Source: Candidatus Latescibacterota bacterium
Lineage (GTDB): Bacteria; Latescibacterota; UBA2968; UBA8231
Direction: 5' to 3'
Assembly (NCBI GenBank): GCA_007571365.1
Contig: RKRN01000070.1
Location: forward strand, 1 to 56,421
DNA length: 56,421 bases
In this document: positions 18,123-50,310 of the stretch, piece after piece
Numbering within the stretch: position 1 is the stretch's first letter
Layout: each line of letters opens with the position of its first letter
Made by a program: the position numbers and the translations under genes
Notes under the pieces: generated by a model
Told to the model about the DNA's origin: nothing
The model's input: only the letters and a program-made list of their open reading frames with translations
The model's database searches: none

Positions 18123-20030
18123 ATGAAAAAGTTTTTAGCCAATATTTGCCTCGCAGTAGCTTTCGCCTTGCTACCTACCCACTCGGCATTCGCCCAAGGT
18201 GCCATAGGCAGCGAGGAGAATGAAATAACCGAGAGCCGGATGCCTACAGTGCTGACGATCGAAGTCGAGGACATGAACATCAGCAGCTTCCCGGTAGATA
18301 TTCCCTTCACTATGTCGGGGTCTCCCGCCACGGTATATCTGGCTGTTTACACGAACTGGGGAGATGCCGATCTTCCGGGCCTGACGGTGGAGGGCGATTT
18401 CAACTGGCATACCTATCAGGAAGTGAACAAAGCTCTGTGGGTTTCCCCCGGCTCTCGCTTTGAGCCGGGTTCGCATTCAATCCGGTGGGATGGAAACGAC
18501 ATGAGCGGCAATCAGGCCGATCCCAATGCCAGCTATCGGTTCTTTGTCATCGGCCTTGACGACCAAGCCCCCATCAACATGGTGGGCTACGCCAATGAGC
18601 GGCACACGGCTGAATCGTGCCTGGCCCGCGACCAAAACGGCGATCTCTTCATTGTGACCGGCGGTAATACACAACGGCTGACGGCCGATGGGCCGCGCCA
18701 TTTGTTCCTCACTCGCGTCGGCACTAACTGGCTGGAGACGCCCGGCGCGTGGCAGGCGATTGACGTGGAGAACGAACTCATGACCGTTGCCCACACGGAT
18801 GACGTTATGCCGGCCGAGTGGCAGGGTGCCGGCAACGGCAAACAGTACGGTAGCCTGCCCGGCGACTTCTACGGCGATAGCTGGGACGGAACAGTCTACG
18901 GCTCCATCAAGTTCAACGTAGATCCGGCGAACGGTCAAGTTACCCTAGACCGGAACTTCGGTACTGAGGGGGATGGCCGCATGAAGTTCGAGCCCTTCAG
19001 CGATGGGAATCTCGTCGTGGGCTCGACTGGTATAGATGTGTGGAAGGGACGGCTCTACTATCCCATTTACGACCGCGGTAGAGATGCGCCTGCCCACGCC
19101 AATGTCGGGATTCAGGATGCGGCTACCGGCGAAGTCATCGATGTACTTGACCTGTCCGAGTGGCTAGTCGTGGATGTGGGCGAGGGCAACCAAGCCTTCA
19201 GCCCCCACGATATCTGGGTGGACGATACCGGAATCTACGTCGTGGGCTACGCGGGCTCTCAGCACGTCAAGATCACCCTTGACGGCGAGTTAAAGTGGCT
19301 CAACGACAACGGCGATGGCTTTGCGGATCGGCGGAACGCGGATACCGGAGAATTCGACTATGGTGCCTTCTCCATCACGCCGTGGAACACATCTGGTTCG
19401 GGTAGCAAGGACGGCTGGGGCTTCGCCTTTATCCCGCTGTTAGGCAGCACCACCAGCACCGTGGATATCTTAGGACCGGATGGCACGGGTATCCTCCACA
19501 TGGTGGCTACCCATGCTCCGGCCCACTGGCCGCAATGGGTCGAGTCCATCGAAGAAGACGGTCCATACGACGGACTGTACTGGGACATCGGTTCGCGGCG
19601 CGGCGGTGGGACAGACCCTTGGGACGTGCCCGACTTCACGGGATTCCCGGCTCGTCAGGCGATCCACTTTCCCTTTGACACCAAGACCGCGCTCATCAAT
19701 GCCGATGCCGGGGCCACGGTCGTAGAGTCGGTAGAGGGAGCGGGGCTGCCCGATAAATATGCACTCGATAACGCCGTTCCCAATCCGGCCAACCCGCAGA
19801 CTACTATCCGCTTCAGCATCCCCCGGGATGAGAACGTGATGCTGCAGATATACAATTTGTCGGGTCAGCAGGTAAAGACTCTGCATCAGGGCTGGGTTGC
19901 GGCCGGCGCGTATCAAAGCACGTGGGATGGGACGGATGATTCTGGCGCGAGCGTGGCCAGTGGTGTGTATCTCTACACCCTGCAGGCCGGTAGCTTCTTT
20001 GAGGCTAAGAAGCTGACCTTGCTTAAGTAA
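18123..20030 (+). CDS. Secreted protein: two FlgD-like modules around a propeller domain
   Basis: A 635-aa exported protein. The signal peptide is MKKFLANICLAVAFALLPTH, cleaved near AFAQG. A first FlgD-like Ig module follows (residues about 50-145, ending HSIRWDGNDMSGNQADPN ASYRFFV). A central region of about 400 residues has repeated WD/NHL-like strands (ESCLARDQNGDLFIVTGG; FSPHDIWVDDTGIYVVG), consistent with a beta-propeller. The C-terminus is a full FlgD-like sorting domain: NAVPNPANPQTTIRFSIP, LQIYNLSGQQVKTL and SGVYLYTLQAGSFFEAKK. It is the first gene of train 1 and is preceded by the AT-rich control region. A weak ribosome binding site TTGGAG precedes the ATG. It is probably surface-attached or released; ligand unknown. 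Confidence 0.88.
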   Translation: MKKFLANICLAVAFALLPTHSAFAQGAIGSEENEITESRMPTVLTIEVEDMNISSFPVDIPFTMSGSPATVYLAVYTNWGDADLPGLTVEGDFNWHTYQEVNKALWVSPGSRFEPGSHSIRWDGNDMSGNQADPNASYRFFVIGLDDQAPINMVGYANERHTAESCLARDQNGDLFIVTGGNTQRLTADGPRHLFLTRVGTNWLETPGAWQAIDVENELMTVAHTDDVMPAEWQGAGNGKQYGSLPGDFYGDSWDGTVYGSIKFNVDPANGQVTLDRNFGTEGDGRMKFEPFSDGNLVVGSTGIDVWKGRLYYPIYDRGRDAPAHANVGIQDAATGEVIDVLDLSEWLVVDVGEGNQAFSPHDIWVDDTGIYVVGYAGSQHVKITLDGELKWLNDNGDGFADRRNADTGEFDYGAFSITPWNTSGSGSKDGWGFAFIPLLGSTTSTVDILGPDGTGILHMVATHAPAHWPQWVESIEEDGPYDGLYWDIGSRRGGGTDPWDVPDFTGFPARQAIHFPFDTKTALINADAGATVVESVEGAGLPDKYALDNAVPNPANPQTTIRFSIPRDENVMLQIYNLSGQQVKTLHQGWVAAGAYQSTWDGTDDSGASVASGVYLYTLQAGSFFEAKKLTLLK

Positions 20031-20053
20031 CATTCCGTTCGTATTGCGACACA

Positions 20054-20105
20054 AGGACGAGGTGGGAGGTCGGCTGTTGTTTGGACGATTCACTCACCTC
20101 GTCCT
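20054..20105 (+). promoter_or_regulatory. 11-bp perfect stem-loop between the first two train-1 genes
   Basis: AGGACGAGGTG (20054-20064) and CACCTCGTCCT (20095-20105) pair perfectly around a 30-base loop. The loop contains the Shine-Dalgarno-like GGGAGGT and the TTG at 20081. No T-run follows, so it is a poor terminator. It could stabilise the 3' end of the first mRNA or control translation of the next gene. Confidence 0.55.
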
Positions 20106-22303
20106 CTTTCGCGCCCTATCTCAACTGTCCAGGCACAGCTAAGTCACCCCCTCTTCAGAAAAAAGGCTTTCTCTTGGGAAGACGAAGAATCCTGCTGTCC
20201 CTGACTCTCCTCCTCGGCTTTGGCAGCAGCCCACTGTGTGGCCAAACCTTCCGCATCGGTCACTGGGAGCAGACGACTTACTACCGTCATACCTTCCAAG
20301 CTCAACAGGCCCGCTCGGGAATCGTGAGGATTACAGCTATCGGGGATTATACCCTTTATTTTAACGGCAGCGAAGTGGAATCCGATAGCGACTGGAGGAC
20401 TGCTGAAGAAGTCTCTGTGGACCTGCAGGCCGGGGCCAACGATATCGCGGTGGCGGTGAATCACTTTGAGGCGGTAGCTGGCACCGGCCTGATTTTCAGC
20501 CTTCAGGCTGGCCCTCAGATTGCGGTGAGTGAAACATCCCTCTGGTTCTGGTCGGATGCCGCGCAAGTCGGCACCGACTGGACAACCGAGAACGTGCAAA
20601 ATTCGTGGAAAAGGGTGCAGGCCGGAACGATCAGCCGAGGGCAGGTGCAAGGAGGCATATTTCATCCGCTCGCCGAAGTTATCGCCGGCTATCCCAACGC
20701 GGTAAATCTGGGTAGTTCAAGCACCGGTCTCATTGTCCTCGCCGACCAGCGTGGCCAGAATATAGCCTTGGGGCTTAATGCTACTGAAGTAGGGGTGACC
20801 GATGGCCGAATCGGCACTCCGGTATGGTCCTTGCCCCAAGGGCTGGGTGCGCTAAATCGCTTAGTCGACATCACCCTGCCGGACCTGACGCGGATCAACC
20901 GGGTTCGGGTTATAACCAAGCCACCCGATGGGAACGAGGTGTATGCTGGCAACTCGCTGCTGGGATATTCTGTACAGATCAGTGAGGACCAGTCTCGCTG
21001 GATCGAGATGGGGGGAATCAACGACATAGAGGACTTTATCTTTACAGAGGTGCTCTTTGATCCAGTGCTGGCACGCTACGTCCGGATCCAAGTAACCCAA
21101 GCAGAGGTAGGCCGAGATCCGGCTAAGGTGACGGAGATTCAAATATACGGCGTTGATTTTGTCGCTCGAGGAAGCTACACCTCGCCGCCGCTGGACTTTG
21201 GCGATGATACGGTGAAGAATTTCGGGCGCGTCCGCTGGTGGGCGGATGTGCCGGCAGCCACGGAGTTGAGTTTGCAATTCAGCACGGGAGATTCGCCGGA
21301 TACGACCGATGCTAGCTGGAGTGCTTGGAGTGGGGAATTCGCGGCCTCAGACATCTTCGTTCCCTCTCCCGAGCCGCGGCGCTATCTGCGCTACCGGGTC
21401 AATCTCCGCACCGAAGACCTGGAAGTTACTCCGGCTTTGGACAGTCTTGAGATCGACTTCAGCGCGGAAAGAATCGCCGCTAGGGATGCACGTGGTTCAG
21501 TGGTCCCCAACGAGGCCCCGATGGGCGTGGAGACTCCCTTCGTCTACCGGGCTATCTTGGAGTTGGCCGAAGGCGACTCTGTGGAGAAAGTTCGGATCCA
21601 CTTGCCCAGCTTTCCCACTAGAGTGGATTCGATTCAACTGCTCGGCCAAGCTATCTCTGTGCCGCAGTTTCCCACGGGCAGCGGGGGTATTGATGTGGGC
21701 GAACGCGTGTTGCGGATTATGCCTGGGAGCGTCGACGACCTAGACGTCCTCTTTGAACCGCCGCTGAGTTCAATAGACGGGACGGAGATTCCCTTCCAAG
21801 TTCTAGTCCACTCTGCCCTCTATACCGACACGCATGAATTTCGCGCTGCTTTATTCAGTCCTAGGTCTACAAATCCACAGAACATCCGCGAGAACTTGGT
21901 GGACGGCGCTTCTTGGGAGGTCGTAGTGACCGATGTGGTGACGAAAGATCTGCTCAATGTCAGAGCCCACCCTCGCGTCTTCACACCCAATGGAGACGGC
22001 GTGAACGACTTCACTGTGATCGAGTTTACACTAACCAAAGTGGCCGTGCCGCGCCGCGTGGATGTGGAGGTCTGCGACCTGTCCGGGCGCAGAGTACGTC
22101 GGCTCAATACGGAGTGGCTGACCGGCGGCCGCTATGTTCATCCTCTCTTGCCTCAAGAAGAAGCGCACTTTGCGCCGGGATTCTGGGACGGCATGGATGA
22201 GTCTGGCGAATTGGTCCCCCCCGGAATTTACCTTTTTACGGTTAAAGCGAATCTGGATAGCGGAGATAAAACGGCCGCTGGAGTCGTCCATCTGGTCTAT
22301 TAG
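20081..22303 (+). CDS. Exported discoidin-domain protein with gliding-type C-terminal domain
   Basis: A protein of 740 aa from a TTG at 20081, or 709 aa from a TTG at 20174, which gives a better signal peptide (GRRRILLSLTLLLGFGSSPL). An N-terminal beta-sandwich contains YTLYFNGSEVESDSDWRTAE, as in carbohydrate-binding lectin-like domains. A discoidin (F5/8 type C) domain follows, marked by LLGYSVQISEDQSRWIEMGG and ARYVRIQVTQAEV. Ig-like modules come next. The C-terminus has the gliding-motility/type IX hallmark HPRVFTPNGDGVNDFTVIEF and ends LVPPGIYLFTVKANLDSGDK. It is likely a surface adhesin or sugar-binding protein. The gene ends 49 nt before the first giant paralogue, in one direction, so shared transcription is likely. 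Confidence 0.85.
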   Translation: MDDSLTSSSFAPYLNCPGTAKSPPLQKKGFLLGRRRILLSLTLLLGFGSSPLCGQTFRIGHWEQTTYYRHTFQAQQARSGIVRITAIGDYTLYFNGSEVESDSDWRTAEEVSVDLQAGANDIAVAVNHFEAVAGTGLIFSLQAGPQIAVSETSLWFWSDAAQVGTDWTTENVQNSWKRVQAGTISRGQVQGGIFHPLAEVIAGYPNAVNLGSSSTGLIVLADQRGQNIALGLNATEVGVTDGRIGTPVWSLPQGLGALNRLVDITLPDLTRINRVRVITKPPDGNEVYAGNSLLGYSVQISEDQSRWIEMGGINDIEDFIFTEVLFDPVLARYVRIQVTQAEVGRDPAKVTEIQIYGVDFVARGSYTSPPLDFGDDTVKNFGRVRWWADVPAATELSLQFSTGDSPDTTDASWSAWSGEFAASDIFVPSPEPRRYLRYRVNLRTEDLEVTPALDSLEIDFSAERIAARDARGSVVPNEAPMGVETPFVYRAILELAEGDSVEKVRIHLPSFPTRVDSIQLLGQAISVPQFPTGSGGIDVGERVLRIMPGSVDDLDVLFEPPLSSIDGTEIPFQVLVHSALYTDTHEFRAALFSPRSTNPQNIRENLVDGASWEVVVTDVVTKDLLNVRAHPRVFTPNGDGVNDFTVIEFTLTKVAVPRRVDVEVCDLSGRRVRRLNTEWLTGGRYVHPLLPQEEAHFAPGFWDGMDESGELVPPGIYLFTVKANLDSGDKTAAGVVHLVY

Positions 22304-22352
22304 CGGGCCGGTGCGAGAAACAGGGCTTGTGGTCTGGCGCAAGCCTAAAGCA

Positions 22353-25082
22353 ATGCGGAGAAGCGTCGTGATAGAGCGGATTAGAGGAGGATTATCACTC
22401 GCTATATTCGCCGCGGTTCTCTTAGGCTTCTGTAGAGCCGAGGCCCAGCTAATCTCCCGCGACTACTACCCTCTGTGGCAAAAAGAACGCTACGAGAATC
22501 TCGGACAGTACGGCTACCGCGACTTTGATGAGCAGGATATTGAGCGGCGGGTCTACGACCCCTTCGGGGTCTACTTAATCGACGGGGTTCCAGTATTCAC
22601 ACTTGAGGAGAGCCGTACCGAGGGGCCGGAGCGGGGCAGTGCCATCTTCAAGAGTCCGATCTACCCACGGATTTTCCGCAACTTGATGATCGGCATGGAT
22701 TCCTACCGGGGATGGTCGGCTGCTATCATGGTCGGCGATGCCATCCCCACCCGCTTTTCGCCTTTGACTCTGAATTTGAGCCGTCTCAACGGCCTTCGTT
22801 TCGACGCCTCTACGCGCAAGACTAGTTTCAGCATCATCGCCTCGCGGATCTCAGATCCGGTACTCTTGGCCACAGGACTGTCCCAGAGCGGCGTTCAGGT
22901 AAATCCAAAGGGCGTATTCGGCAGACCTTCGTTCGGAACGTACCTGATAGGCGGCCACTGGGAGACGACTCTGGGTAGTGTGCTCAAACTGGGTTCCACC
23001 TATGTCAATATTCACAATTTCGACAGTATCGCCGGTAGAAAGGAAGGATCGCTCAAGGGAGTCGTTCCGTTTTCCGCGCTCGACGAAGGAAAGTCGATAT
23101 TCGTCTTGGTCAGCGATGATTCCCATTGGGACGGAGAAGGGCCACGCGTCTATCGCATGGAGATATACGTCGACGGCGAGCGGCGGGACGATATCGAGCC
23201 GATGATCCGGATGATCCACTCAGTGCCTGAACTCATAGGGGCTGCTAACAGGACCATTGGGCGGGGAACCAGTGAGATCGCGCTCAATCGGGCGGACAGA
23301 CCTTCGTGGCTAATCCAAAATTATCAGATGGAGGAAATCGTCAGGGAGGGGTACACGCGTCGGGGTCAGCTCAGCAATTTTACCAGCGGCGGGCTGTTCT
23401 TCAAAGAGGGAGAACCTGTAAGCCACGATGGCGTTCCTTTCTTACAAGTAGATGAGACGGATATCCTAGTTTATCGCTTTGAGATTCCTCCAAGTTCCGC
23501 GAAGGTGCATTTCAGAATGCTAGCCGCCGGGGACTACGTGGTGGATGTGGCCAGTGCCCTAGACTGGACCGGCACTGACGTCCAGTGGCGAGATTGGCAC
23601 ACCGCAAAGCGGGCCGAGAACAATGCCAAGGATCGGAGCAATATGGGGTGGATCGCGTTCCGCTACGGCTTCCCGACCGGGATGATTCTCTACGGAATGG
23701 ATTTCGAGGCCAAAGTCTTGGGCTTCCGAGCTTGGGGTGAATTCGTCCGGAATACCTCCTATTTCAAGTTTCCGTCGGGAGAGGGCGAGCGTCTCTCTAC
23801 GAATGAAGACGCCTATTTCCTCAATGTATTTCGGGACCTGGGTCGTTGGGACCTGGGGTTCGAGTATGTGAGTTTGCCCTCCGGTTTCGCTACTTCTTTT
23901 TCAGCATTAATGCAGAACCCCCGGCAAAATGTCATAGCCCCCTTTGAGTTAGTAGACGACAACGACGACCGGGATGAATGGCCCGACCGCTGGGAGCAGG
24001 AGCGCGATTTTGCCTCGCTTAACATGACGCCAGCCCCGGGTGCAGGTCTGGGATTTGGGGTTTTTCCCGGCCTAGATGTAGATAATGATGGAGTCCGCGA
24101 CAATGTCTGGTACAACGGGGCGGACAAGGTTCTGACCTATTACGACCAGCCCTTTGTGTTCGGCGACGATTTCAACAATAACGGTCTAGTGGATGGGTGG
24201 GAAAACGACAATCGGTCGGATTATCCCTACGATCACGATAGTCGCGGCGGTCATTTCTTTATTACTTGGCGTCCCTTTACTTCCCAACAGCATGCGTGGG
24301 TGCGAGTCGGCCACTACGATATGCGCCAGCCGGACAGCGGTGGCCGGGATTTGACCACCTATGTCAAGACTAATTATCTGAGGCGCTGGCCGGGGCTCGG
24401 CCGGCTGCAGACCGGCTACTACGGCAAGAGAGTACGGGACGATATTAGCAATGATCTGTACCAATTCGTTGGTGGCGGCAGGTACCAAGTATTGCCGGAT
24501 CGGCTACTGCTGCGCAACAGTCTGCAGAATACCCTCGTGGTGGGGACTCAGGTCAACACGGACAAACTGCCGCACTTGAACATCTACAATGATATTCTCG
24601 TGGAAGTCAACGATCAGCGAGAATTGACCGCAGGGGATTTCTTTCAGCCAGATAGCCGCATAACAACTATGGGATATGTCGCTAGGGTCGATTACACTTG
24701 GTATATAGGCGATAGTTTCGGCTTCGGTCCGATGTTCAAGGCGGTCTTCAACCGGACCAAGGCCGAACTAATTAGTTTGAAGAGACACGCATATACACTG
24801 ACGCCGATCATAAGAGGAGATTACCGTTTGGCACCGCATACCGTGTTGCGAGGGGGGATCCTCGGATGGCCACTGCGGGAGAAGCACCGAGACCTAGTGC
24901 GGCCTTTTTTAGACCGAGATTCTTGGTACTACATCTTGGTTCTGGAAAATCTCGGCAATTACCGAGGAGTTGATGTGAGTACCAACATCGGGTACCAGAA
25001 AAATTTTGACCGCTATCCTTCCGCCTCACACCGCGTGGCCGTCGGTGCCGTCCGCTATTTCATCCGCTTGCGCATCGGCTAG
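22353..25082 (+). CDS. Giant envelope paralogue 1 (D/N-rich Ca-binding-like domain, likely beta-barrel)
   Basis: A 909-aa protein starting at the ATG at 22353. A long upstream extension of the frame is rejected because it runs through the previous gene. The signal peptide is GGLSLAIFAAVLLGFCRAEA. The N-terminal half contains a region shared with the next two genes (MVGDAIPTRFSPLTLNLS; GTYLIGGHWETTLGS). Residues about 534-630 hold an Asp/Asn-rich domain: VDDNDDRDEWPDRW, GLDVDNDGVRDN, GDDFNNNGLVDGWENDNRSD. Its spacing resembles thrombospondin type 3 or dockerin calcium loops. The last 270 residues alternate polar and hydrophobic residues with many aromatics, as expected for an outer-membrane barrel, and end RVAVGAVRYFIRLRIG. 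No known family recognised. Confidence 0.8.
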   Translation: MRRSVVIERIRGGLSLAIFAAVLLGFCRAEAQLISRDYYPLWQKERYENLGQYGYRDFDEQDIERRVYDPFGVYLIDGVPVFTLEESRTEGPERGSAIFKSPIYPRIFRNLMIGMDSYRGWSAAIMVGDAIPTRFSPLTLNLSRLNGLRFDASTRKTSFSIIASRISDPVLLATGLSQSGVQVNPKGVFGRPSFGTYLIGGHWETTLGSVLKLGSTYVNIHNFDSIAGRKEGSLKGVVPFSALDEGKSIFVLVSDDSHWDGEGPRVYRMEIYVDGERRDDIEPMIRMIHSVPELIGAANRTIGRGTSEIALNRADRPSWLIQNYQMEEIVREGYTRRGQLSNFTSGGLFFKEGEPVSHDGVPFLQVDETDILVYRFEIPPSSAKVHFRMLAAGDYVVDVASALDWTGTDVQWRDWHTAKRAENNAKDRSNMGWIAFRYGFPTGMILYGMDFEAKVLGFRAWGEFVRNTSYFKFPSGEGERLSTNEDAYFLNVFRDLGRWDLGFEYVSLPSGFATSFSALMQNPRQNVIAPFELVDDNDDRDEWPDRWEQERDFASLNMTPAPGAGLGFGVFPGLDVDNDGVRDNVWYNGADKVLTYYDQPFVFGDDFNNNGLVDGWENDNRSDYPYDHDSRGGHFFITWRPFTSQQHAWVRVGHYDMRQPDSGGRDLTTYVKTNYLRRWPGLGRLQTGYYGKRVRDDISNDLYQFVGGGRYQVLPDRLLLRNSLQNTLVVGTQVNTDKLPHLNIYNDILVEVNDQRELTAGDFFQPDSRITTMGYVARVDYTWYIGDSFGFGPMFKAVFNRTKAELISLKRHAYTLTPIIRGDYRLAPHTVLRGGILGWPLREKHRDLVRPFLDRDSWYYILVLENLGNYRGVDVSTNIGYQKNFDRYPSASHRVAVGAVRYFIRLRIG

Positions 25083-25098
25083 AATTGCTACGAGCAAG

Positions 25099-27921
25099 AT
25101 GAGGATCTTTCATTTTTTACTTTTAGGCACTCTGGCCCTAGTGTGGGTTGGAGAGAGTAGTGCCTATGTACGGGGGTCGGGACTCTTTCTCTACCGACCG
25201 GGCGAGGGGTATATCACCCATTCCCGGGAACCCTACAAACACTGGCCGCGCTCTTATCTGGTCCGCCCCGAAGATCTCGTCTTCGACGAGTTGGGCAATT
25301 TTGTCGTCGAGGGCATCGAAGTGTTCCGGTTGCGCGAGTCGCGCACCCTTGACCCTGAGCCGGGAAGTGTCATCGACAAGAGTCGGTATTTCAAAGACTA
25401 CCTCAGTCGGCTTTCAGTCTCCTCTGATTCCTACGGAAAATTTAACACTTCTCTGATCGTCGGCGACAATATCCGCACCAAATTTACCTCGCTGACCCTA
25501 GACTTGGCGGCTATGAACGGCATTCGTTGGGACATGAACCTGCCCCAAGCCGATTTTACCCTGATCTCTTCGCGGCTGGACTATCCCATCTTTGACGTGA
25601 ACGCGAACGCCGATAACAAACAACACAACTTTGGTGCGCTCGGCACTCGGCCCCCCTTATTTGCCACCTATCTGCTGGGGTCGCATTTGGAAACCCAAGT
25701 TGGTGCGTTAAATCTGGGACTCGTGTGGGTCAATCAGTATCGCATCAACAGTCTGATGGAATGGGGAGACTGGGATTTCCGGGGAGCGACGCCGGGAAAT
25801 ATCCAGCCAGTTGATTATCTGGTGGTGAAGTTTGCGGATGGGTCGATAGATGATGCCGGAGGGCCCCGAGTATACGATTTTGAGGTCTATATCAACGGCC
25901 AACTACGACCGGAATTGAAGGTGTACCCCGATGCTGTTTCTGCGGCGGGCATTGACGATACCCAGCGCATCGTCGTGACCCGGCATCACCTTGAGGACAT
26001 CGATCCAGCTTTTCCCAATGGCGACAAGGAGTTTCTGCGGGAATTGGGCCGGGAAATACCGCCCTATGTGGAATTCGTCAGCGGCTTGCTACCCGAGAAC
26101 TTTCCAGGAGAAAAGGGTTATCTAGAAACACACGGCAAAGAGTTTCTTCTTTATTGGGTACCGTTGAGCGGGGAAGATATCGACGACGTGCGGTTCAAAG
26201 TCAAGGTGGGCAACGACTATCGGATTAGCCTGTCCGAGGTCTACGCCAACGATCCCAGTAGGGCGAGGAGGGATCGAAGTCCGCGGGATCGGAACAGAGC
26301 CCTCTACTTCTACGACGTCGCCCACGCTCTAGGCAAGGTACAGGACCTTTCCAATCTGCGGGTAGTGGAGTTCCGGCACGGCCGACAGACGGGGAGAATG
26401 CTGGGCGGAATCCACGCGGATTTTGAAGTAGAGGATCTGTCTGTGCGGGCAGAGTACGATCTCAGCTACGATTTTCGCCAGTTTCCGGTCCCTAAAGGGA
26501 AGCGGAGCGATCGCCGGGGAGAAGCGTATTTCATCAATGCCGTCGTCAACCGGGACGGTGTGGAGTTCGGCGGCGAATTATTCCGCATAGAGCCGGAATA
26601 CGGCACCTACTTGCAGGTTCAAGATCCTAGCTATCAAAGCTTTGTCACCTTACCTTTTGCACCCTTGGACAGCGAGATTGACGGCGGCTTGAAAGGCATT
26701 GATGGGTTCAACCAGAGTTCGCTCAATGGAACCCTGATCTTCGATACGGTGGAGGATAACGACGACAAAGACCGCTTTCCAGACGAGCATTATATCAGGA
26801 GCCGCCGGGATCGGGATGGAATTTTCCCGGGGCTAGATCTCGATCAGGATGGCCGACCGGATACCAACATAAACAACAATGGTATACCCGACTATCTGGA
26901 GCCTTTTCTGCTCTTCGATGTCAACCCCGAAGAATACGATTACGGCGATGATTTGAACAACAACGGAGTCATCGACATCCGGGAGAACAATCCCGATGTA
27001 GACTATCCCTACAATAAGGACCTAGAAGGATTTCACCTATTTGCGTCTTTTTACCCTTGGCGAGGAACGACGCTCAAGGTGGGGCACTATAACACCGAGC
27101 AGATCACCGCCGGGGGCGTGAACGAGGTCTTTTACACCAAGGTGGAACACACTCGCTATCTTCCCTTTTGGGGTACCCTTACCCTGATTGACTTCGCCAA
27201 GAGAGTAAAGGACGACATCCGGGATAACGTATTCCAGTTTCCCCGCAATGCTACCTTTGAATTGCAGGAAGATATCAGCGGTCGGCTGACTGGTACGGGG
27301 TTGACCATTGACCTGATAGAAGACCCCCTGCACATGAAGAACAGTTTCGTCAATACCGCTTATGCCGCCTTGGATTTTGATGGCACCACCCCCCTCAACA
27401 TTCACCTCGATTTCAAGCACGACTTCAACCGCCAATTTGCCCAAGAAGGACGCAAGTCCAACCGCATCGTCAGGCTGACTTCTGTCGTCAAGGGAGCGTA
27501 TCCTTGGGACCTGTCGGGTATGTTGCGGGATGTGAGAATCACCCCACAAGTGAAAGTGATGGGGCAGAAGTTGACTAATGATCGATGGCAGGTGCCGGTG
27601 CTGCACGAGATATTCTTCTATCCCATTCTGCGCCTAGACTGGAATATGACCTCCTTGACGAGCGTTCGTATCGGAGCCCAGGGCTTTCCCTTTCTACAGA
27701 GCCGTTCCCTCGACTTGGTCAATTCGAATAGGGACTTTGCGAGCCAAGACTATGTTTTCATACTCGCTAACACTTTCACGTATCAGGGGTACAGGGTGAA
27801 CTTCAACATGGGCTATCAGATACAGAAGCGGGAATTCAACTCCCCCCGACAGGCCTTGAATAACGTAGATACGTCCATATTCTTTTTCCGGGCTTTGGTC
27901 GGACTCCGTCCGGTCATTTAG
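25099..27921 (+). CDS. Giant envelope paralogue 2
   Basis: A 940-aa protein from the ATG at 25099, 16 nt after paralogue 1. The signal peptide is MRIFHFLLLGTLALVWVGES. It shares the N-terminal block (IVGDNIRTKFTSLTLDLA; ATYLLGSHLETQVGAL) and the D/N-rich domain at about 551-645 (VEDNDDKDRFPDEHY; GIFPGLDLDQDGRPDTN; IPDYLEPFLLFDV; GDDLNNNGVIDIRENN). The C-terminal third is strand-rich with alternating hydrophobics and ends SIFFFRALVGLRPVI, compatible with an outer-membrane barrel. Sequence similarity to paralogues 1 and 3 is moderate, so the triplication is old. The calcium-like motif and PDYLEPF core are the most conserved parts. Function unknown. Confidence 0.8.
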   Translation: MRIFHFLLLGTLALVWVGESSAYVRGSGLFLYRPGEGYITHSREPYKHWPRSYLVRPEDLVFDELGNFVVEGIEVFRLRESRTLDPEPGSVIDKSRYFKDYLSRLSVSSDSYGKFNTSLIVGDNIRTKFTSLTLDLAAMNGIRWDMNLPQADFTLISSRLDYPIFDVNANADNKQHNFGALGTRPPLFATYLLGSHLETQVGALNLGLVWVNQYRINSLMEWGDWDFRGATPGNIQPVDYLVVKFADGSIDDAGGPRVYDFEVYINGQLRPELKVYPDAVSAAGIDDTQRIVVTRHHLEDIDPAFPNGDKEFLRELGREIPPYVEFVSGLLPENFPGEKGYLETHGKEFLLYWVPLSGEDIDDVRFKVKVGNDYRISLSEVYANDPSRARRDRSPRDRNRALYFYDVAHALGKVQDLSNLRVVEFRHGRQTGRMLGGIHADFEVEDLSVRAEYDLSYDFRQFPVPKGKRSDRRGEAYFINAVVNRDGVEFGGELFRIEPEYGTYLQVQDPSYQSFVTLPFAPLDSEIDGGLKGIDGFNQSSLNGTLIFDTVEDNDDKDRFPDEHYIRSRRDRDGIFPGLDLDQDGRPDTNINNNGIPDYLEPFLLFDVNPEEYDYGDDLNNNGVIDIRENNPDVDYPYNKDLEGFHLFASFYPWRGTTLKVGHYNTEQITAGGVNEVFYTKVEHTRYLPFWGTLTLIDFAKRVKDDIRDNVFQFPRNATFELQEDISGRLTGTGLTIDLIEDPLHMKNSFVNTAYAALDFDGTTPLNIHLDFKHDFNRQFAQEGRKSNRIVRLTSVVKGAYPWDLSGMLRDVRITPQVKVMGQKLTNDRWQVPVLHEIFFYPILRLDWNMTSLTSVRIGAQGFPFLQSRSLDLVNSNRDFASQDYVFILANTFTYQGYRVNFNMGYQIQKREFNSPRQALNNVDTSIFFFRALVGLRPVI

Positions 27922-27930
27922 GAAAAGGCC

Positions 27931-31134: not shown

Positions 31135-31178
31135 AGGACAGGCGTATTCGCAAGCGAATCCAACAAAAGGTAACTGCG

Positions 31179-31721: not shown

Positions 31722-31743
31722 ACCTTTTAGAGGGAGTTCGTCA

Positions 31744-32124: not shown

Positions 32125-32200
32125 TAACGCGATGCTAGAGCATGAATATATAGGCTTTAACGGCTGACGCACTCCTACTTAGAGCGCGAAGGTACTGCCG

Positions 32201-33481: not shown

Positions 33482-33502
33482 ATTTCTTCTTAAAGCCTAC
33501 CT

Positions 33503-35059: not shown

Positions 35060-35080
35060 TTGCTTGTATTGACCCACGTT

Positions 35081-37318: not shown

Positions 37319-37421
37319 AAGAACGCCTCCAATCAGCCACCAGTGGGATACCCTAGACCCTGACAGGGCAGTGTAAACAGCGACAATACGACAAAGATAA
37401 ACTCTTAACGTAAGAACGATA

Positions 37422-38750: not shown

Positions 38751-38769
38751 ACGCTAGGGGGAAGATTCG

Positions 38770-40011: not shown

Positions 40012-40044
40012 GTCTTCGCCGGGCTTGCAAAGAGGAGCGACCTG

Positions 40045-43332: not shown

Positions 43333-43398
43333 CGTCCGCGTACGTGGAGTGCCTGATCCGCGCAAGTTGAGGGAAAGGTACGTCGCACCAAAAAGGAA

Positions 43399-44190
43399 AT
43401 GAACATGAAAATCACCGGCGAGGCGATAAGGTGGATATTGGCAGCTTGTATAGCCCAAATTGCAGTGGGGTGCATTATTTTTCCGCCGAAAATCCACTAC
43501 AACTCATACTTAGAGCCTACGGAAACAAGCGGCAATGGATCTCCGTATAGAGTGGAGAATGATGGCTCTAGATACGTATCAGAGGGATTGCGAATCGACG
43601 TCAAATTTATGACGGATGCAGAACTGAATGCCTTGCTCCCCGAAGATTCGCATAGAGGAGAGTATTCGACCAACCCCTACACCTACGGCGACTACATTGA
43701 TCGGGATGTGGGTTACACCCCCAACCGCTTCACGGTCTTCAAGGTGAGTGTTTTCAATCAGACTTTTGCCAAAGTTCAACTCTATCCTCTCAAAGGCATT
43801 CTCTTGACGGATCAGGGCCAGACACTCCATTCCTATGGGATGCCATCGACGTCGCCCTACAATAGCTTTGAGCGGTATTACAGAGGCTTGCGCGGGCAGA
43901 GCGGCAATGAATTCTATCGCTTTGAAGTCAGAATGGGGCATGTGCGCAGTCTGAACTATGCAGAGGATCAGCCGATATTCAAGGGTGAAAACTACAGCGG
44001 CCTGATCGCCTTTGATTCGCTCGACCCAGCGGTGGAAAAAGTGCGGTTGGTCCTGAAAGAATTCGCGCTCAAATTCGACGAGTTTGACACCCCGCTAGAA
44101 ACGGTCGACATCCGTTTCGACTTCAACCGCAAGATAGAGAAGTGGAAGGTGCAGAAAAACCATGAGACGGTGAGCTTTGACCATCAATAG
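43399..44190 (+). CDS. Lipoprotein of unknown family
   Basis: A 263-aa protein from the ATG at 43399 (or 43405), with AAGGAAA before it. The signal peptide ends in the lipobox AVGC with Cys25. The mature part is mostly beta, with a conserved-looking core NRFTVFKVSVFNQTFAKVQL and KVRLVLKEFALKFDEFDTPL. The pattern of an extracytoplasmic beta-sandwich is clear, but I do not recognise the family. Position between the giant TPR gene and the CsgG-like gene suggests it belongs to the same outer-membrane assembly. Confidence 0.78.
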   Translation: MNMKITGEAIRWILAACIAQIAVGCIIFPPKIHYNSYLEPTETSGNGSPYRVENDGSRYVSEGLRIDVKFMTDAELNALLPEDSHRGEYSTNPYTYGDYIDRDVGYTPNRFTVFKVSVFNQTFAKVQLYPLKGILLTDQGQTLHSYGMPSTSPYNSFERYYRGLRGQSGNEFYRFEVRMGHVRSLNYAEDQPIFKGENYSGLIAFDSLDPAVEKVRLVLKEFALKFDEFDTPLETVDIRFDFNRKIEKWKVQKNHETVSFDHQ

Positions 44191-44217
44191 TGGTCCGCTC
44201 TGGCAACAGCTCTTCCC

Positions 44218-45126
44218 ATGCTAACAACAGCTACTCTAGGCTGGTCTCGTCTCTGTAGAATCGCCCTGTTGGGGCTCGCCTTACTCCTGTATCCGCTTCG
44301 GTCTGCGGCGTTTCAGCCCGAAGCGGTGATTCTGCTCGTCCCCTTCGAGGATCACAGTTACTTTCGCGGTAGCTGGGATATCAGCCGGGGTATTCCCCAA
44401 GTCCTAGGCGACTTGCTCCAGCAGGATCGGAACATAGTCGTTTTGCCGTTGCTCGATTCTCTACTAACAGCAGGCGAGGACAGGGCCGCCCTGAGTGAGG
44501 CCCAAGCACTCAGGATAGGAAGTGCCGCCGGTGCCGATCTGGTTGTGAGCGGCGATATTCGCAACTTCTCTATCAAACGGTTCAATGCCGGCAACCCCTT
44601 CTTAGGGGGGTACACCTCCTATACGGCCCAGGTCGAAGTCGAGATCCAATTGCTGCGGCCGCTCTCTGGTAGTCAAGTTGGAACGGCGGCGGGGAAGGCC
44701 GAAATGACGGATCGCGATCTGGGCTTGACCCTTTTGGGAAAACCTACCCGTAAAGAGGCCGCCCTGCTCGAGCTCAACGAGATTCCCTTTGGTGTGGAGC
44801 ACTTTCGGCAGACCATAATAGGCAAGGCCACACTAGATGCACTCCAGCAACTAACTAAAGCGATTGCGGCTAAGACCTTTCCACCCCGTGCCCTACAACA
44901 GCGGGAACCGAAGATCCTCAGCCTGCAGGGAAAGGAGGGGTTCGTCAATTTGGGACTGGCGGATAAGGTTGAGATAGGACACAAATTTGTGGTGTATTCC
45001 CGGCGGGCGGTGAAGCAGGTCGGAGTCGTACAAGTCGCCGAAGTACTGGCCCAGCATCTCTCGCGGATTCTGGTGCTCAAAGGGCAGGAGTATATTCAGG
45101 TAGAGGATGCGCTAGCAGCCCCCTAG
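44218..45126 (+). CDS. CsgG/FlgT-like exported protein
   Basis: A 302-aa protein with a signal peptide (IALLGLALLLYPLRSAAFQP). The core VILLVPFEDHSYFRGSWDIS, IPQVLGDLLQ and LRIGSAAGADLVVSGDIRNF follows the CsgG or FlgO pattern: an ABD-like domain that forms the neck of outer-membrane pores or binds flagellar parts. A C-terminal segment GKEGFVNLGLADKVEIGHKF resembles the FlgT C-terminal domain. It lacks a lipobox cysteine, unlike CsgG itself. Its stop overlaps the start of the next gene (TAGTG). A pore or pore-associated role in the locus is an inference. Confidence 0.7.
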   Translation: MLTTATLGWSRLCRIALLGLALLLYPLRSAAFQPEAVILLVPFEDHSYFRGSWDISRGIPQVLGDLLQQDRNIVVLPLLDSLLTAGEDRAALSEAQALRIGSAAGADLVVSGDIRNFSIKRFNAGNPFLGGYTSYTAQVEVEIQLLRPLSGSQVGTAAGKAEMTDRDLGLTLLGKPTRKEAALLELNEIPFGVEHFRQTIIGKATLDALQQLTKAIAAKTFPPRALQQREPKILSLQGKEGFVNLGLADKVEIGHKFVVYSRRAVKQVGVVQVAEVLAQHLSRILVLKGQEYIQVEDALAAP

Positions 45127-46904
45127 TGCTACGCCTGCCGCGAGGTGCTATCTCCATGTCGCCAGACTACCTAGGTCGCCTTTTTCTCCACTCAATGTGG
45201 TCGATCTGCCTCGTGCTTTGGGGTTCGGCCACCGATGCCACGGGTGGGCCGGTGCATTTTGTCGAAGTGGGCGCAGAGGCGGGTATCGATTTTCACTACA
45301 CCCATGGTGGTACTGGGCAGAAGTACTTTATCGAAACTATGGGCCCAGGGTGCGCATTTCTGGATTATGACAGCGATGGATTTCTCGATTTATACACAGT
45401 CAATGGGCACGACCTGACTCTTGGCACCGCCCCTGAAGAGTTCAATGCGCTCTATCGCAACAAAGGCAATGGAACCTTCGCCGAAGTCGGGCGCGAGGCT
45501 GGGGTACGAGACCGGGGATACGGTATGGGCGTGACCGCCGCCGATTATGACAACGACGGCGATGTGGATATCTACCTCACCAACTACGGTCCGAATGCCT
45601 TGTATCGCAACGAGGGGGACGGAACCTTTGCGGATGCTACCGACCAAGCGGGACTAGGGAACGAACTGTGGGGGACCGGGTGTGCCTTTTTTGACTATGA
45701 CAACGACGGCTCCCTCGATTTATATGTGGCCAACTATGTCGAATATACCCTCGACGCCCCAAGAAAGGATCTGACTCCATATGCCGTTGGCTCCCTTGCG
45801 GGCGAAGAAGTAGCACCAGATATCAGGGCCTATCCCAGTCCCGATAATTTTAAAGGTGCTCCCGATGCACTGTATCACAACGAGAGAGATGGAACCTTTG
45901 CCGATGTCACGGTCCAAGCCGGGGTGTTCAATCCGGCTGGAAAAGGGATGGGCTTGGTGTGCGGCGACTACGACAACGACGGCGACATAGATCTCTTTGT
46001 GGCCAATGACCAGACAGCCAATTTCCTCTACCAGAACAACGGCGATGGAACTTTCGCAGATGTAGCTCTTATCGCGGGAGTCGGCTACAGCGGCGATGGG
46101 CGGATGGAAGCCAGCATGGGAGCCGACTTCGGAGACTATGACAACGATGGCTTGCTCGATCTCGTCGTGCCAAACTTTCAGCGCGAGCCTACCAGTCTCT
46201 ACCGGAACGAAGGCGATGGTTTGTTCGCGTACGAATCGACGCCTTCGGGTGTCGGGCGCTATTCGCTCCCCTATGTCGGCTGGAGCACTGCCTTTTTCGA
46301 TTATGACAACGATGGTTTGTTGGATATCTTCGTCGCCAACGGGCACACCCTAGACAACGTGATTCTCTTCGACGCCTCCACCTCGTATCCCCAGCGCAAC
46401 CAGTTGTTCAGGAACGAGGGACAGAGACGCTTCGCCGAGGTCTCCGACGCCGCAGGAGAGGGGCTGGCCATCGTCAAGGTGAGCCGAGGGGCGGCGTTGG
46501 GGGATTACGACAACGACGGCGATGTAGATATCTTCGTGGTCAATTCGGTCGGCCGCGCTGACCTGCTGCGGAACGATGGGGGCAACGAGCGCAACTGGCT
46601 CCAAGTCGGAGTGGTCGGCGTAGAGAGCAACAGGGATGGTGTAGGGGCGAGAATCGAACTCAACGCGGGCGGTCTGCGCCAGATCCGGGAGATCAAGAGC
46701 GGCTCTGGACTGTACAGCCAAAATGACCTGCACGCTTCTTTTGGGTTGGGGAAGAGTGAGCGTATAGAGCAACTCGTCGTTCGCTGGCCCAGCGGCATAG
46801 TGGATCGCATGAGCCGGTTAGCTGTCAACCAGAGCATCATAATCGTGGAGGGCCGGGGCCGGGTCGAAGCCAGTGCATGGAACAACAGCAGCCGTGCGCC
46901 CTGA
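45126..46904 (+). CDS. FG-GAP/ASPIC-UnbV surface protein (CRTAC1-like)
   Basis: A 592-aa protein from a GTG at 45126, or 582 aa from the ATG at 45156, which gives a cleaner signal (LGRLFLHSMWSICLVLWGSA). Six to seven FG-GAP/VCBS repeats form an integrin-like propeller with the calcium motif DYDNDGDVDIYLTN and close variants (DYDNDGSLDLYVAN, DYDNDGLLDIFVAN). Each repeat is joined by LYRNEGDGTFADAT-type sequences. The last 100 residues are an ASPIC/UnbV domain: NWLQVGVVGVESNRDGVGAR and LVVRWPSGIVDRM. It is a calcium-dependent surface or adhesion protein. Like the giant paralogues, it carries many Asp-rich calcium loops. Confidence 0.92.
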   Translation: MLRLPRGAISMSPDYLGRLFLHSMWSICLVLWGSATDATGGPVHFVEVGAEAGIDFHYTHGGTGQKYFIETMGPGCAFLDYDSDGFLDLYTVNGHDLTLGTAPEEFNALYRNKGNGTFAEVGREAGVRDRGYGMGVTAADYDNDGDVDIYLTNYGPNALYRNEGDGTFADATDQAGLGNELWGTGCAFFDYDNDGSLDLYVANYVEYTLDAPRKDLTPYAVGSLAGEEVAPDIRAYPSPDNFKGAPDALYHNERDGTFADVTVQAGVFNPAGKGMGLVCGDYDNDGDIDLFVANDQTANFLYQNNGDGTFADVALIAGVGYSGDGRMEASMGADFGDYDNDGLLDLVVPNFQREPTSLYRNEGDGLFAYESTPSGVGRYSLPYVGWSTAFFDYDNDGLLDIFVANGHTLDNVILFDASTSYPQRNQLFRNEGQRRFAEVSDAAGEGLAIVKVSRGAALGDYDNDGDVDIFVVNSVGRADLLRNDGGNERNWLQVGVVGVESNRDGVGARIELNAGGLRQIREIKSGSGLYSQNDLHASFGLGKSERIEQLVVRWPSGIVDRMSRLAVNQSIIIVEGRGRVEASAWNNSSRAP

Positions 46905-46946
46905 TATCAGAGACTCGACTATAGTAGGCGCGAAAGGAGTTTTTCG

Positions 46947-48230
46947 ATGAAATGGGCTTTGTCCCTAGCTCTTTTGTGGGCCCTCCCCGGAATGGGCCAA
47001 GTGTCTCTTTCTACTAGTAAACGCGATGGGCAGCCGATATATGTGTTCGAAAATAAATACATCAGAAGTGAGATAGCCCATACCCGGGGGCGGTCGCCTC
47101 TGAGTTATTTCGACAAAATCGCCGGCGTAGAACAGCTAAGACAACTCGACCCCCTCGACAAAAACCACGGCAAACACTACCCGCACGGCGGTGTCGCCGA
47201 ATGTGTGCCGTGGACCGGGGGATCGCCCTACATGGGTTACCTATGGACGCAACCGTGGGAGATGACAGCCCGGACTTACGCGCACCGTGCCGTCTTGGTA
47301 AGTGAGATGACTTTTCCCTACCCCGACCCGGTCACCGGCAAATTGTGCGAACTGAGATTTAAAAAGACCATGACCGCTTACGAAGGCTCCACGCGGCTAA
47401 AGATGGATTACAAGATAGAAAACGTCGGTGAACGGCGCGCTCGCTTTCAACACTGCGTCCACGGCAGTCCCTGCGTCGGCGGCGAGTGCGACGACAGCGA
47501 TTATTTTTACGCTCCCGGCAGTCAGTGTTGGGTGGTGTGGAGCGGACTCATTCCGCAATACCAGATCCCGGATCAGTCGTGGCATTCGTGGCCAATACCC
47601 GAAGCAGTGGATTTCCGCCGGGGCGGTGTGGGAGGTCTCCAGTTGTTTGTGCCGGCACTGTGGGGTGTAATTGGGGACAACGAGAGCCAGCAAGTAATGG
47701 CTATGGTCAGCTCGCCGGTGTCTGTGGGGGATAGGCAGATCCCCTCCTATATAGGTTATACGCGCGGTGCAGACACGTACTACTTAGAGCCCTCGCTGAC
47801 CCGCCATATCTCCAATCACGCCGACCGCTGGGAGCGGGAGGGGTACTCTGTCGACCTCAACCGGGGCGAGGTATGCGAATACACCGTGGATATGGCGATG
47901 TTTCATGGCATCACCAAGGAACAGGTTGTCTCCCTGTACAGGCTCACAGGAGATTATCTGCTGCTGGATGAGCCGAGCCTGACCTTTAAGAGCAGCAAGC
48001 GAGAAAAGGCCGTCTTGAAAATGGATATTGGGGTATCGGCAGAAACCGAACTCATCGCGCAGGATGCGGCTAGCGGCGAGGATCTTTTTATCAAGAGCTT
48101 GCTGCCGGGAAAGATAGCGCGGGTTTCGGCGGCGATCCGGCTGCCCACAGCAGCGGAAGCCGTCACTGTGATGCTCAGGAACGCGGCTGGGGACCAAGTT
48201 ATATCGCGACTGCCCGTAGCATTACCCTAG
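46947..48230 (+). CDS. Exported beta-sandwich protein, family not recognised
   Basis: A 427-aa protein with a signal peptide (MKWALSLALLWALPGMGQVS). The body is beta-rich with many Trp, Tyr and charged residues, as in sugar-binding or aldose-epimerase-like folds (FENKYIRSEIAHTRGRSPLS; FKKTMTAYEGSTRLKMDYKI; NVGERRARFQHCVHG). Histidine and acidic residues are clustered there, but no catalytic pair could be named. A C-terminal Ig-like segment (AETELIAQDAASGEDLFIKS) follows. It lies 42 nt after the FG-GAP gene and 43 nt before the last membrane protein gene of the train. A role in carbohydrate recognition is possible. Confidence 0.6.
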   Translation: MKWALSLALLWALPGMGQVSLSTSKRDGQPIYVFENKYIRSEIAHTRGRSPLSYFDKIAGVEQLRQLDPLDKNHGKHYPHGGVAECVPWTGGSPYMGYLWTQPWEMTARTYAHRAVLVSEMTFPYPDPVTGKLCELRFKKTMTAYEGSTRLKMDYKIENVGERRARFQHCVHGSPCVGGECDDSDYFYAPGSQCWVVWSGLIPQYQIPDQSWHSWPIPEAVDFRRGGVGGLQLFVPALWGVIGDNESQQVMAMVSSPVSVGDRQIPSYIGYTRGADTYYLEPSLTRHISNHADRWEREGYSVDLNRGEVCEYTVDMAMFHGITKEQVVSLYRLTGDYLLLDEPSLTFKSSKREKAVLKMDIGVSAETELIAQDAASGEDLFIKSLLPGKIARVSAAIRLPTAAEAVTVMLRNAAGDQVISRLPVALP

Positions 48231-48273
48231 TTGATTACTGCACTGGCAGGCAAGACAATATGCCCCTTGTGCA

Positions 48274-50310
48274 GTGAATGAGGAGTTGTACGACGCCCGA
48301 CAAAATCGCTGTAGGGAAATCTGTCGACTGAGAATGAAGAAACAAAAGCCAAGAGATACGAGCGTGGAAAACTCCTCTGGGGTGACGCCGAGAGCTTTTT
48401 TTACCGGTCTGGTGTGCTCGGCAGTGGTGAGCGGGGGAACGCAGTACGGGGAAATTTTCCTCAGAAGTTCGCGCATGTCCGACGACTTCAGCACCGGTGG
48501 GGCTCTATTCGTTTTCTTTTTTTTAGTAGCCGGTATCAATGTGCTGTTGAAGCTAATGGGACCCAGAGTGGCATTCACGCCGGCGGAATTGATCCTCATC
48601 TATGTAATGATGATGACCTCGTGTGCGATCACGGGAATGGGGCTGACCCACTACCAGATCCCCCTGATGGCGACGCTGCCCTATTTTGCGACGCCCGAGA
48701 ACGACTGGGCGAATCTGGTGGCCCCCTATGTCAGAGGATGGATGGTCATCGAGGATCCGCTGGCGTGCAAGTACTTCTTTGAGGGCCTGCCGCAAGGCGA
48801 GTCGATTCCGTGGGCTGTGTGGTTGAAGCCACTGGCCTACTGGAGCGTCTTCTTCGCCGCCTTCTACTTTGTGATGATCTCGCTGATGGTCATTCTGAGA
48901 AAGCAGTGGATAGAACATGAAAGGCTTATATATCCCATCATCAGGGTCCCTCTAGATATGATCGGTGAAAATAACAAGAGCGGTCTGCTAGTGGGATTCT
49001 TCAAAAATCCCCTGATGTGGCTAGGTTTCGCCTTTGCATCCTTCATCACTTCTTCCATTGGTCTCAATGCTTACTATGATTATTTGCCCGCACTCAACCC
49101 CCTTTATCCCGGCGTCACTTTCTCGTTGCTGCGGGAATCGATCCAGTTGCGCTTTATGATCAGTTTTCCCGTGATGGGATTTGCCTATTTGATCAATCAG
49201 GATGTGGCCTTCGGGCTCTGGTTTCTGGATGTTGTGGTCAAATGCCTAGGCGGCGTATTCGATACGCTAGGGGTGTATCTACAATTGCGGGTCAATCACT
49301 ACGGCGGCAGCTCAGGGATATTTTCCTCGACCGCGGTCGGGGCCATGTTGATACTAGTACTCTATGGTGGCTGGGTCGCCAGAGGCCACCTGCAAGATGT
49401 ATTTAGAAAGGCCCTTACCCCAGCTCCTGATGTAGATGATTCCGGCGAGATTCTCTCCTATAGGAGTGCGGTAATCGGCACACTGGTGTCGGTGGTCGTC
49501 ATGCTCGTCTGGCTCAGGGCCGCCGGCTTACCGCTTTGGGCGGGCGGGCTGTTCCTGTTTATCGCCTTCGTGATCTTTATCGCCATTACTCGCATCGTGG
49601 TCGAGGGCGGTATGGCGGCGTGTCGGGCACCCCTAATCGCCCCCAATTTTATGCTCTATGCCGTCGGCACTCCGGCCCTAGGCGCACAGGGAGTGACGGC
49701 ACTGGGGTATACCTACGGGTGGTCTTCGGATATTCGGACCTTTTTGATGGCGTCAATTGCCAACGGGTTGAAACTGCTAGACGACGAGCGTTTCCAAGGA
49801 CGCAAGCGCCCGGTGTTTTTCTGTATTGTCGCGGCCCTGATCGTATCGCTGATCGTGTCGTTCGGGCTGATGCTCAGGCTAGTTTATGGGGTCGGAGGCG
49901 TGAACATCCACTCGTGGTTCTGCTTGGGAGCAAATTTACTACCTTTCGACCTAGTATCGACGGTAGTCAGCCGACCGATTGACGTGACTTGGGGGATGTG
50001 GATGAATATGGGTATTGGTGCCTCGCTCATGGGCATTCTGACGCTATTGCGGCACAAGTTTCTGGGGTGGCCTCTCCACCCGCTGGGATTGACTGTTGCC
50101 GGCAGCCGGGTGATGGACTGGACCTGGTTCAGCATCTTTCTGGCTTGGTTAATCAAGGTCATCGCCTTGCGCTACGGCGGTCCCAAGATGTTTAGGGCCC
50201 TGCGTCCCTTCTTTTTGGGAATGGTACTGGGACAATTCGTATCGGCGGGTATCTGGACAGTGATTGATGGTTTCACTGGCATGACCGACAACATGATATT
50301 TGTAATCTGA
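48274..50310 (+). CDS. Large polytopic membrane protein, DUF6785/OPT-like
   Basis: A 678-aa protein with about 14 membrane helices. The GTG at 48274 and the ATG at 48334 are both possible starts; the second gives MKKQKPRDTSVENSSGVTPR. Marks of the DUF6785/DUF6784 class are FTPAELILIYVMMMTSCAIT, then GLTHYQIPLMATLPYFATPE, and IEHERLIYPIIRVPLDMI. Later segments IVVEGGMAACRAPLIAPNFM and MTDNMIFVI close the protein. This class is related by fold to oligopeptide transporters, but its substrate is unknown. It is the last gene of train 2 and is followed by a strong terminator hairpin. Confidence 0.8.
   Translation: MNEELYDARQNRCREICRLRMKKQKPRDTSVENSSGVTPRAFFTGLVCSAVVSGGTQYGEIFLRSSRMSDDFSTGGALFVFFFLVAGINVLLKLMGPRVAFTPAELILIYVMMMTSCAITGMGLTHYQIPLMATLPYFATPENDWANLVAPYVRGWMVIEDPLACKYFFEGLPQGESIPWAVWLKPLAYWSVFFAAFYFVMISLMVILRKQWIEHERLIYPIIRVPLDMIGENNKSGLLVGFFKNPLMWLGFAFASFITSSIGLNAYYDYLPALNPLYPGVTFSLLRESIQLRFMISFPVMGFAYLINQDVAFGLWFLDVVVKCLGGVFDTLGVYLQLRVNHYGGSSGIFSSTAVGAMLILVLYGGWVARGHLQDVFRKALTPAPDVDDSGEILSYRSAVIGTLVSVVVMLVWLRAAGLPLWAGGLFLFIAFVIFIAITRIVVEGGMAACRAPLIAPNFMLYAVGTPALGAQGVTALGYTYGWSSDIRTFLMASIANGLKLLDDERFQGRKRPVFFCIVAALIVSLIVSFGLMLRLVYGVGGVNIHSWFCLGANLLPFDLVSTVVSRPIDVTWGMWMNMGIGASLMGILTLLRHKFLGWPLHPLGLTVAGSRVMDWTWFSIFLAWLIKVIALRYGGPKMFRALRPFFLGMVLGQFVSAGIWTVIDGFTGMTDNMIFVI

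Follow-up and report, generated by a model that had tools for sequence, protein, structure and literature searches.

The DNA considered here (the window) spans 56,421 nucleotides and is an entire contig (C159) of a draft genome of Candidatus Latescibacterota bacterium (5.47 Mb, 91.7% complete, 6.15% contamination), in which open reading frames (ORFs) were called mechanically. Between positions 18,123 and 50,310 it carries an envelope locus of 17 forward-strand genes, arranged in two trains (18123-35059, 9 genes; 37422-50310, 8 genes) between which lies a single reverse-strand gene for a transglutaminase-like protein; a forward ORF antisense to the latter (35060-35686) was taken as spurious. 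A sequence-only reading of this stretch had described two close-packed, co-directed trains whose products are mostly exported, and had proposed that the whole set may be one undescribed surface or secretion system. The layout was confirmed, with within-train gaps of at most 76 bases, and so was export for most products of both trains. Domain searches recovered each of the DUF5683, DUF4159, DUF4340, FG-GAP and two TPR proteins that had been named, as well as the FlgD/gliding-type tail of the first gene product; the label CsgG-like is a fold-level impression only, the corresponding FlgT_M match lying below the cut-off.

A recurring gene order connects the locus to its relatives. The succession of FlgD-tail protein, F5/8C-like protein with a C-terminal domain (CTD; family c0), giant proteins gA, gB and gC, 1095-residue TPR scaffold (TPR1095), DUF5683 protein, fn3-like lipoprotein, DUF4159 protein, lipoprotein LP263 and CsgG-like protein recurs in more than 20 loci across Latescibacterota with 30-50% identity, for example in L029 (contig C92 of the same genome), L062, L064, L069 and L071. 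The FlgD-tail gene keeps the first position in L047, L049, L050, L054, L055, L069, L071 and others, and the TPR1095 gene lies immediately 3' of gC in L029, L030, L053, L061, L064, L069 and L071. Counterparts of LP263, 47-58% identical, adjoin the DUF4159 gene or gC in other loci with a giant triplet, and the CsgG-like gene sits between DUF4159/LP263 and ExbB in L120, L124 and L127. In relatives TPR1095 and LP263 follow the giants, and in the window both belong to the second train; judged by this comparison, the two trains are parts of this one order.

A core system consisting of 18123-33481 and 38770-45126 is supported by this conserved order, and the proposal of one undescribed system stands for this core and not for all 17 genes. 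The giants are indeed conserved beside the TPR, CsgG-like and DUF4159 genes. The SSF symporter gene is unique to the window copy among orthologous loci and, by comparison with these, is a later insertion in the ExbB/ExbD slot and no part of the system. The transglutaminase-like gene stands at this slot only in the window copy and in L052, L067 and L177, the copies closest to it, and probably lies outside the system; DUF4340 is retained in closer orthologues only, and the FG-GAP, g46947 and DUF6785 genes are loose or accessory neighbours. No such system is described in papers on Latescibacteria (PMC4454575) or on DUF4159 with ExbB or TonB. In one distant triplet locus a PorV/FadL-looking barrel gene without Pfam hit (L066:4410-5384) lies between the F5/8C protein and gA.

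Table 1. Genes of the envelope locus, with the evidence for each assignment
Feature	Position	Strand	Evidence
Secreted ~635-residue protein, FlgD_ig/T9SS type A-like C-terminal tail	18123-20030	+	FlgD_ig 1.3e-16; operon's first gene
c0, multi-domain beta-sandwich surface protein, F5/8C-like, type B-like CTD	20081-22303	+	CHU_C/F5_F8 slightly under Pfam cut-off
Giant gA, predicted barrel	22353 (true start, about)-25082	+	gA clade
Giant gB, predicted barrel	25099 (start about)-27921	+	gB clade; AlphaFold
Giant gC, predicted barrel	27931-31134	+	gC clade; start codon uncertain
DUF5683 small membrane protein	31131-31721	+	DUF5683 2.5e-7; position conserved
fn3-like small lipoprotein	31744-32124	+	weak, E=0.05; position conserved
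Putative TonB-like transducer, C-terminal DUF4159	32201-33481	+	DUF4159 4e-27; N-terminal transmembrane helix
SSF symporter	33503-35059	+	Pfam SSF; in no orthologous locus
Transglutaminase-like gene	35081-37204	-	same place only in L052, L067, L177
DUF4340 membrane-anchored protein	37422-38750	+	DUF4340 2.6e-43; closer orthologues only
TPR protein, 413 residues, N-terminal transmembrane helix	38770-40011	+	TPR domain match
TPR scaffold, 1095 residues, YbgF/BamD/PorW-like repeats	40045-43332	+	TPR domain match; conserved position
LP263, predicted outer-membrane lipoprotein, lipobox AVGC, no known family	43399-44190	+	conserved position
CsgG/FlgT-like periplasmic protein	44218-45126	+	FlgT_M E=0.002, below cut-off (weak)
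FG-GAP/UnbV_ASPIC protein, accessory giant neighbour	45126-46904	+	Pfam match
g46947, loose/accessory gene	46947-48230	+	position in second train
DUF6785/DUF6784 polytopic membrane protein, accessory giant neighbour	48274-50310	+	Pfam match

The giant proteins and their distribution

The three giant ORFs (982, 971 and 1067 residues) are, as had been proposed, paralogues with calcium-like motifs, about 30% identical to one another and with conserved DxDxDG/DxNNNG loops; gC has a possible lipobox (LSC) around residue 39. No family in Pfam or NCBIfam matched them and a giant profile gave chance matches only against PDB sequences; by these searches the giants are a new, undescribed family. An AlphaFold model of gB, built with 40 relatives, has a pLDDT (predicted local distance difference test) of 75.5, a pTM (predicted template modelling score) of 0.75 and about 26-27 long strands, the calcium-loop region at residues 540-640 being of low confidence. 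Foldseek searches with this model returned SlpA, MtrB, LptD, TonB-dependent receptors, FimD and SprA, all at template modelling (TM) scores of at most 0.35. Both a signal peptide and a closed barrel fold, as in outer-membrane beta-barrel proteins, are predicted, and the family, which is without a solved close relative, can with good reason be predicted to form large outer-membrane barrels. Neither domain search nor model revealed a plug domain. The giants were also considered as SprA relatives and this was rejected, as hhalign gave a probability of 6% against a profile of Latescibacterota SprA and aligned only the calcium-loop region.

The family is large. A gB query gave 99 matching pieces within the own genome, and the loci fetched around these matches contained 55 giant ORFs, clustered across 39 loci. 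Two complete genomes of the same genus (OX638377.1, OY282352.1; G054/G055) hold at least 47 and at least 41 distinct giant genes as counted from the match list, and giants would thus amount to an estimated 2% of a genome (47 genes of about 2.7 kb in 6.27 Mb). In a tree of 121 giant sequences the triplet genes fall in three clades, namely gA (25/25, support 0.998), gB (26 sequences, support 1.0) and gC (24 and a further gene whose best-hit label was gB, support 1.0), and the single giants group apart along with a few genes labelled gB by best hit. By this phylogeny gA, gB and gC are three ancient subfamilies. Conservation of the whole trio in many loci hints that the three kinds of barrel form one complex. 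When GTDB species genomes were scanned with two short peptide patterns, with which rarer occurrence in other taxa is possible, 35 loci were found, labelled Latescibacteria/Latescibacterota, Gemmatimonadetes/Gemmatimonadota/Gemmatimonadaceae and, once, Nitrospinota. Relatives deposited as Gemmatimonadetes, Gemmatimonadaceae or Nitrospinota include L049, L050, L051, L059 and L067, among others; from their identity to named Latescibacteria, such labels are likely to be old or wrong names.

Among 64 genomes of the phylum, in each of which up to 14 giant candidates were scored so that copy numbers are lower bounds, 39 possess giants: every one of the 25 from the own GTDB family, 14/15 in five other families, none of 22 in three families of the same class and none of two in a further one. 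The TonB-like DUF4159 protein (E<1e-50) was detected in 38/39 giant-bearing genomes versus 0/25 giant-less ones, and ExbB of the triplet type (E<1e-45) in 22/39 versus 0/25. These data bear on the view that the locus is a chance neighbourhood of unrelated envelope genes, whose homologues would be scattered in relatives. The SSF, transglutaminase-like, DUF4340 and downstream genes, which are not widely conserved, agree with it; for the core it is contradicted by the repeated order and by the tight co-occurrence, and we regard it as very improbable.

Motor genes and secretion components

In orthologues 72-76% identical to the window copy (L049/L128, L050), ExbB, ExbD and a second ExbD are encoded between DUF4159 and DUF4340, and in other triplet loci (L030, L120, L123, L124) the same set follows the CsgG-like gene or stands beside the TPR gene; the six ExbB/ExbD genes tested matched Pfam with E values of 1e-26 to 1e-33. 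In the window this slot is occupied by the symporter and the transglutaminase-like gene and, set against its relatives, the cluster there is incomplete, ExbB-ExbD-ExbD being missing. As the local genes are gone, the window copy either would obtain its motor from elsewhere or would be a derived form. Of the seven MotA/ExbB genes in the own genome, three adjoin triplet loci, and contig C92 carries an ExbB of the same subtype. A giant-free module of TPR (~1085 residues), ExbB, ExbD and DUF4159 genes was seen at L170:169-5947 (G000:C120) and L126:432-6292; it could be a candidate for a shared motor of single giants. The DUF4159 protein of the core has a transmembrane helix and a basic, proline-containing stretch ahead of its DUF4159 domain, from which architecture we infer a TonB-like transducer.

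The sequence-only reading had found neither GldK/L/M/N nor PorV or SprA, and this holds for the window; for the genome it does not, since SprA and PorV are encoded elsewhere. The SprA/Sov translocon of the type IX secretion system (T9SS) is a single gene of about 2100 residues (G000:C77; L115:7114-13572). SprA is present in 62/64 genomes of the phylum, irrespective of giants, and PorV in 14/14 genomes tested, including the own one. GldM_1st was absent from 6/6 genomes, searched without a validated T9SS positive control, and GldL was not searched. This would amount to a T9SS translocon outside Bacteroidota, nearly phylum-wide and without recognisable GldM. The locus might accordingly be a variant T9SS in which an ExbBD/DUF4159/TPR module powers SprA-dependent export in place of GldLM, with giants as PorP/PorV-like exit partners. 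SprA and PorV in the tested genomes, where GldM was not detected, the CTD tails that the products of the first two genes bear and the PorW/SprE-like repeats of the TPR scaffold agree with such a variant. However, all 22 same-class genomes without giants have SprA, from which it follows that SprA works without the ExbBD/DUF4159/TPR module, and none of the control genomes was a verified T9SS positive for the GldM model; we judge this variant improbable.

Outside the locus, the product of 14930-16525 (-) is likewise secreted and ends in a T9SS-type tail (Por_Secre_tail slightly under cut-off). By eye, 6416-7012 and 7012-7533 (both +) look like a pair of L,D-transpeptidases, the first with an HGTL...HGCVRV-type active-site stretch and the second resembling a degenerate paralogue without it, and 16512-17609 (-) and 54318-55337 (+) both look phytanoyl-CoA-dioxygenase-like.

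Single giants and their c0 partners

Proteins of the c0 family, with 72 ORFs in the loci fetched from the own genome, adjoin nearly every giant. A c0 model consists of stacked beta-sandwiches, for which Foldseek returned galactose oxidase, complement and PorU at low TM scores. A TPNGDG-type motif occurs in 39/65 full-length c0 proteins versus 0/189 other proteins, in nearly all cases 87-107 residues before the C-terminus (in the window VFTPNGDGVND, about 95-110 residues before the C-terminal end), and is read as a type B-like T9SS CTD. In the complete genome G054, the surroundings of 20 single giants were compared with 20 evenly spaced regions. Near giants, c0 was found in 20 regions (3 control regions), a PPIC-type peptidyl-prolyl isomerase (PPIase) in 16 (1), TPR in 11 (1), the secreted protein c3 in 9 (0), DUF6785 in 6 (2), and LP263 and FG-GAP/UnbV in 5 each (0 and 1). 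By these counts c0, giant and PPIase are the usual unit. Twenty regions around TonB-dependent receptors of G054 gave c0 4, PPIase 1, TPR 3, c3 0, DUF6785 1, LP263 1 and FG-GAP/UnbV 2, and 18 receptor regions of giant-less sister genomes had no giant accessory family save one DUF6785.

The number of variants makes uptake the main rival to a display or transport function. Giants would then be plug-less, TonB-energised importers of large glycans or peptides in the manner of SusCD, with c0 proteins as surface binders and DUF6785, SSF and MFS proteins as inner-membrane importers. Like Ton with SusC/SusD, the Latescibacterota set combines ExbB-ExbD and a TonB-like transducer with many paralogous barrel/surface-protein pairs, more than 40 of them diversified per genome; c0 folds are carbohydrate-binding-like, c3 has a weak CBM9 match, and DUF6785 and occasional sulfatase, FGE or catabolic genes lie nearby. 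In contrast to that system, the giants have no plug, their partner has no SusD family hit (a SusE search of the own genome also gave none), and normal TonB-dependent receptors exist separately. Receptors are similarly numerous in genomes with and without giants and their neighbourhoods barely share the giant accessory set, for which reasons giants as a replacement of these receptors were rejected; single loci as polysaccharide-utilisation loci were likewise discarded, neither glycoside hydrolases nor sulfatases being among the 25 commonest neighbour families. Taken with PPIases and CTD tails, which indicate export or display, the missing plug and the little neighbourhood shared with receptors lean, not strongly, towards display or transport, and uptake appears unlikely without being far-fetched.

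A proposed envelope-spanning machine

We give about an even chance to the core being a trans-envelope machine driven by the proton motive force, similar to Agl-Glt/Nfs, in which a motor and a TPR scaffold are coupled with giant barrels that hold T9SS-type surface proteins. An inner-membrane ExbB-ExbD-ExbD motor would move the DUF4159 transducer, and force would pass through the two periplasmic TPR proteins and outer-membrane lipoproteins (43399, 31744, 44218) to the three different giants. The barrels may hold or release the CTD-tagged products of 18123 and 20081, exported by the separately encoded SprA/PorV translocon, and surface cargo or a surface-bound polymer would be moved, exported or displayed. 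The roughly 40 single c0-giant pairs per genome would each be a variant for its own cargo, and one motor could serve several of them, as Agl serves Glt and Nfs. Protein families, gene order, co-occurrence and the ExbBD genes of relatives are observed, and the fold class of gB is predicted; for physical coupling, energy flow, cargo and output we infer this scheme as the best explanation, because the Latescibacterota parts list fits the principles of Agl-Glt and SprB-SprF (type B CTD protein plus barrel) together.

In M. xanthus, an ExbB/ExbD/ExbD motor is coupled via a TonB-like protein and TPR proteins (GltD, 1191 residues; GltE, 471 residues) to outer-membrane parts, and is re-used for a second, paralogous output complex, Agl being common to Glt and Nfs (PMC3169522, PMC3858216). 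One ExbB/TolQ-like protein (AglR, 245 residues) and two ExbD/TolR-like ones (AglQ, AglS) there correspond to ExbB-ExbD-ExbD in relatives of the locus, not in the window; GltD, GltE and TonB-like GltG are matched, in architecture only, by a large and a small TPR protein and the DUF4159 protein, and outer-membrane parts, in Myxococcus GltA/B/H, GltC and GltK, exist on both sides. The barrels differ in being of about 900-1070 residues, of an undescribed family and in more than 40 copies, the transducer has DUF4159 instead of FHA/TonB domains, and the surface proteins bear CTD tails, the Glt output parts being likened by architecture, not by sequence. Type B CTD proteins bind to barrels that are encoded next to them or specific to them, as in SprB-SprF and PG1035-PorP (PMC9143113). 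Here, too, a gene for a CTD-tailed surface protein lies directly 5' of a barrel gene, and SprA and PorV are in the genome; unlike the giants, SprF and PorP are 14-strand FadL-type barrels (PMC9143113), and GldM was not found. With Tol-Pal the locus has in common an ExbB/ExbD pair and a YbgF/CpoB-like TPR protein, but neither Pal nor TolB was found in it.

Several observations weigh against the proposed machine. The window lacks ExbBD, as do L052, L067 and L177, the loci nearest to it, and OY282352 carries the orthologous cluster split in two, about 2 Mb apart. The giants match neither the PorP nor the PorV family and have no detectable SprA homology, and the F5/8C and CHU_C matches are marginal, slightly under Pfam cut-offs. 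Co-occurrence is clustered by phylogeny, with 6 GTDB families positive and 4 negative, and because giant presence follows families, few independent events underlie it. Finally, more than 40 diversified giant copies are more usual for uptake systems.

Rather doubtful is the strongest form of the proposal, in which the machine forms a new class among proton-powered surface machines: it would need all three barrel types, take the place of GldLM in moving or exporting the cargo that SprA secretes, and give each cell more than 40 outputs, every one specific to a cargo. The machine has few and clearly delimited parts, which makes the idea testable. If the proposed proton-driven machine is real, surface machines driven by ExbBD/TolQR would have one more lineage in addition to Ton/Tol and Agl-Glt, and DUF4159 proteins would be able to serve as TonB-like transducers.

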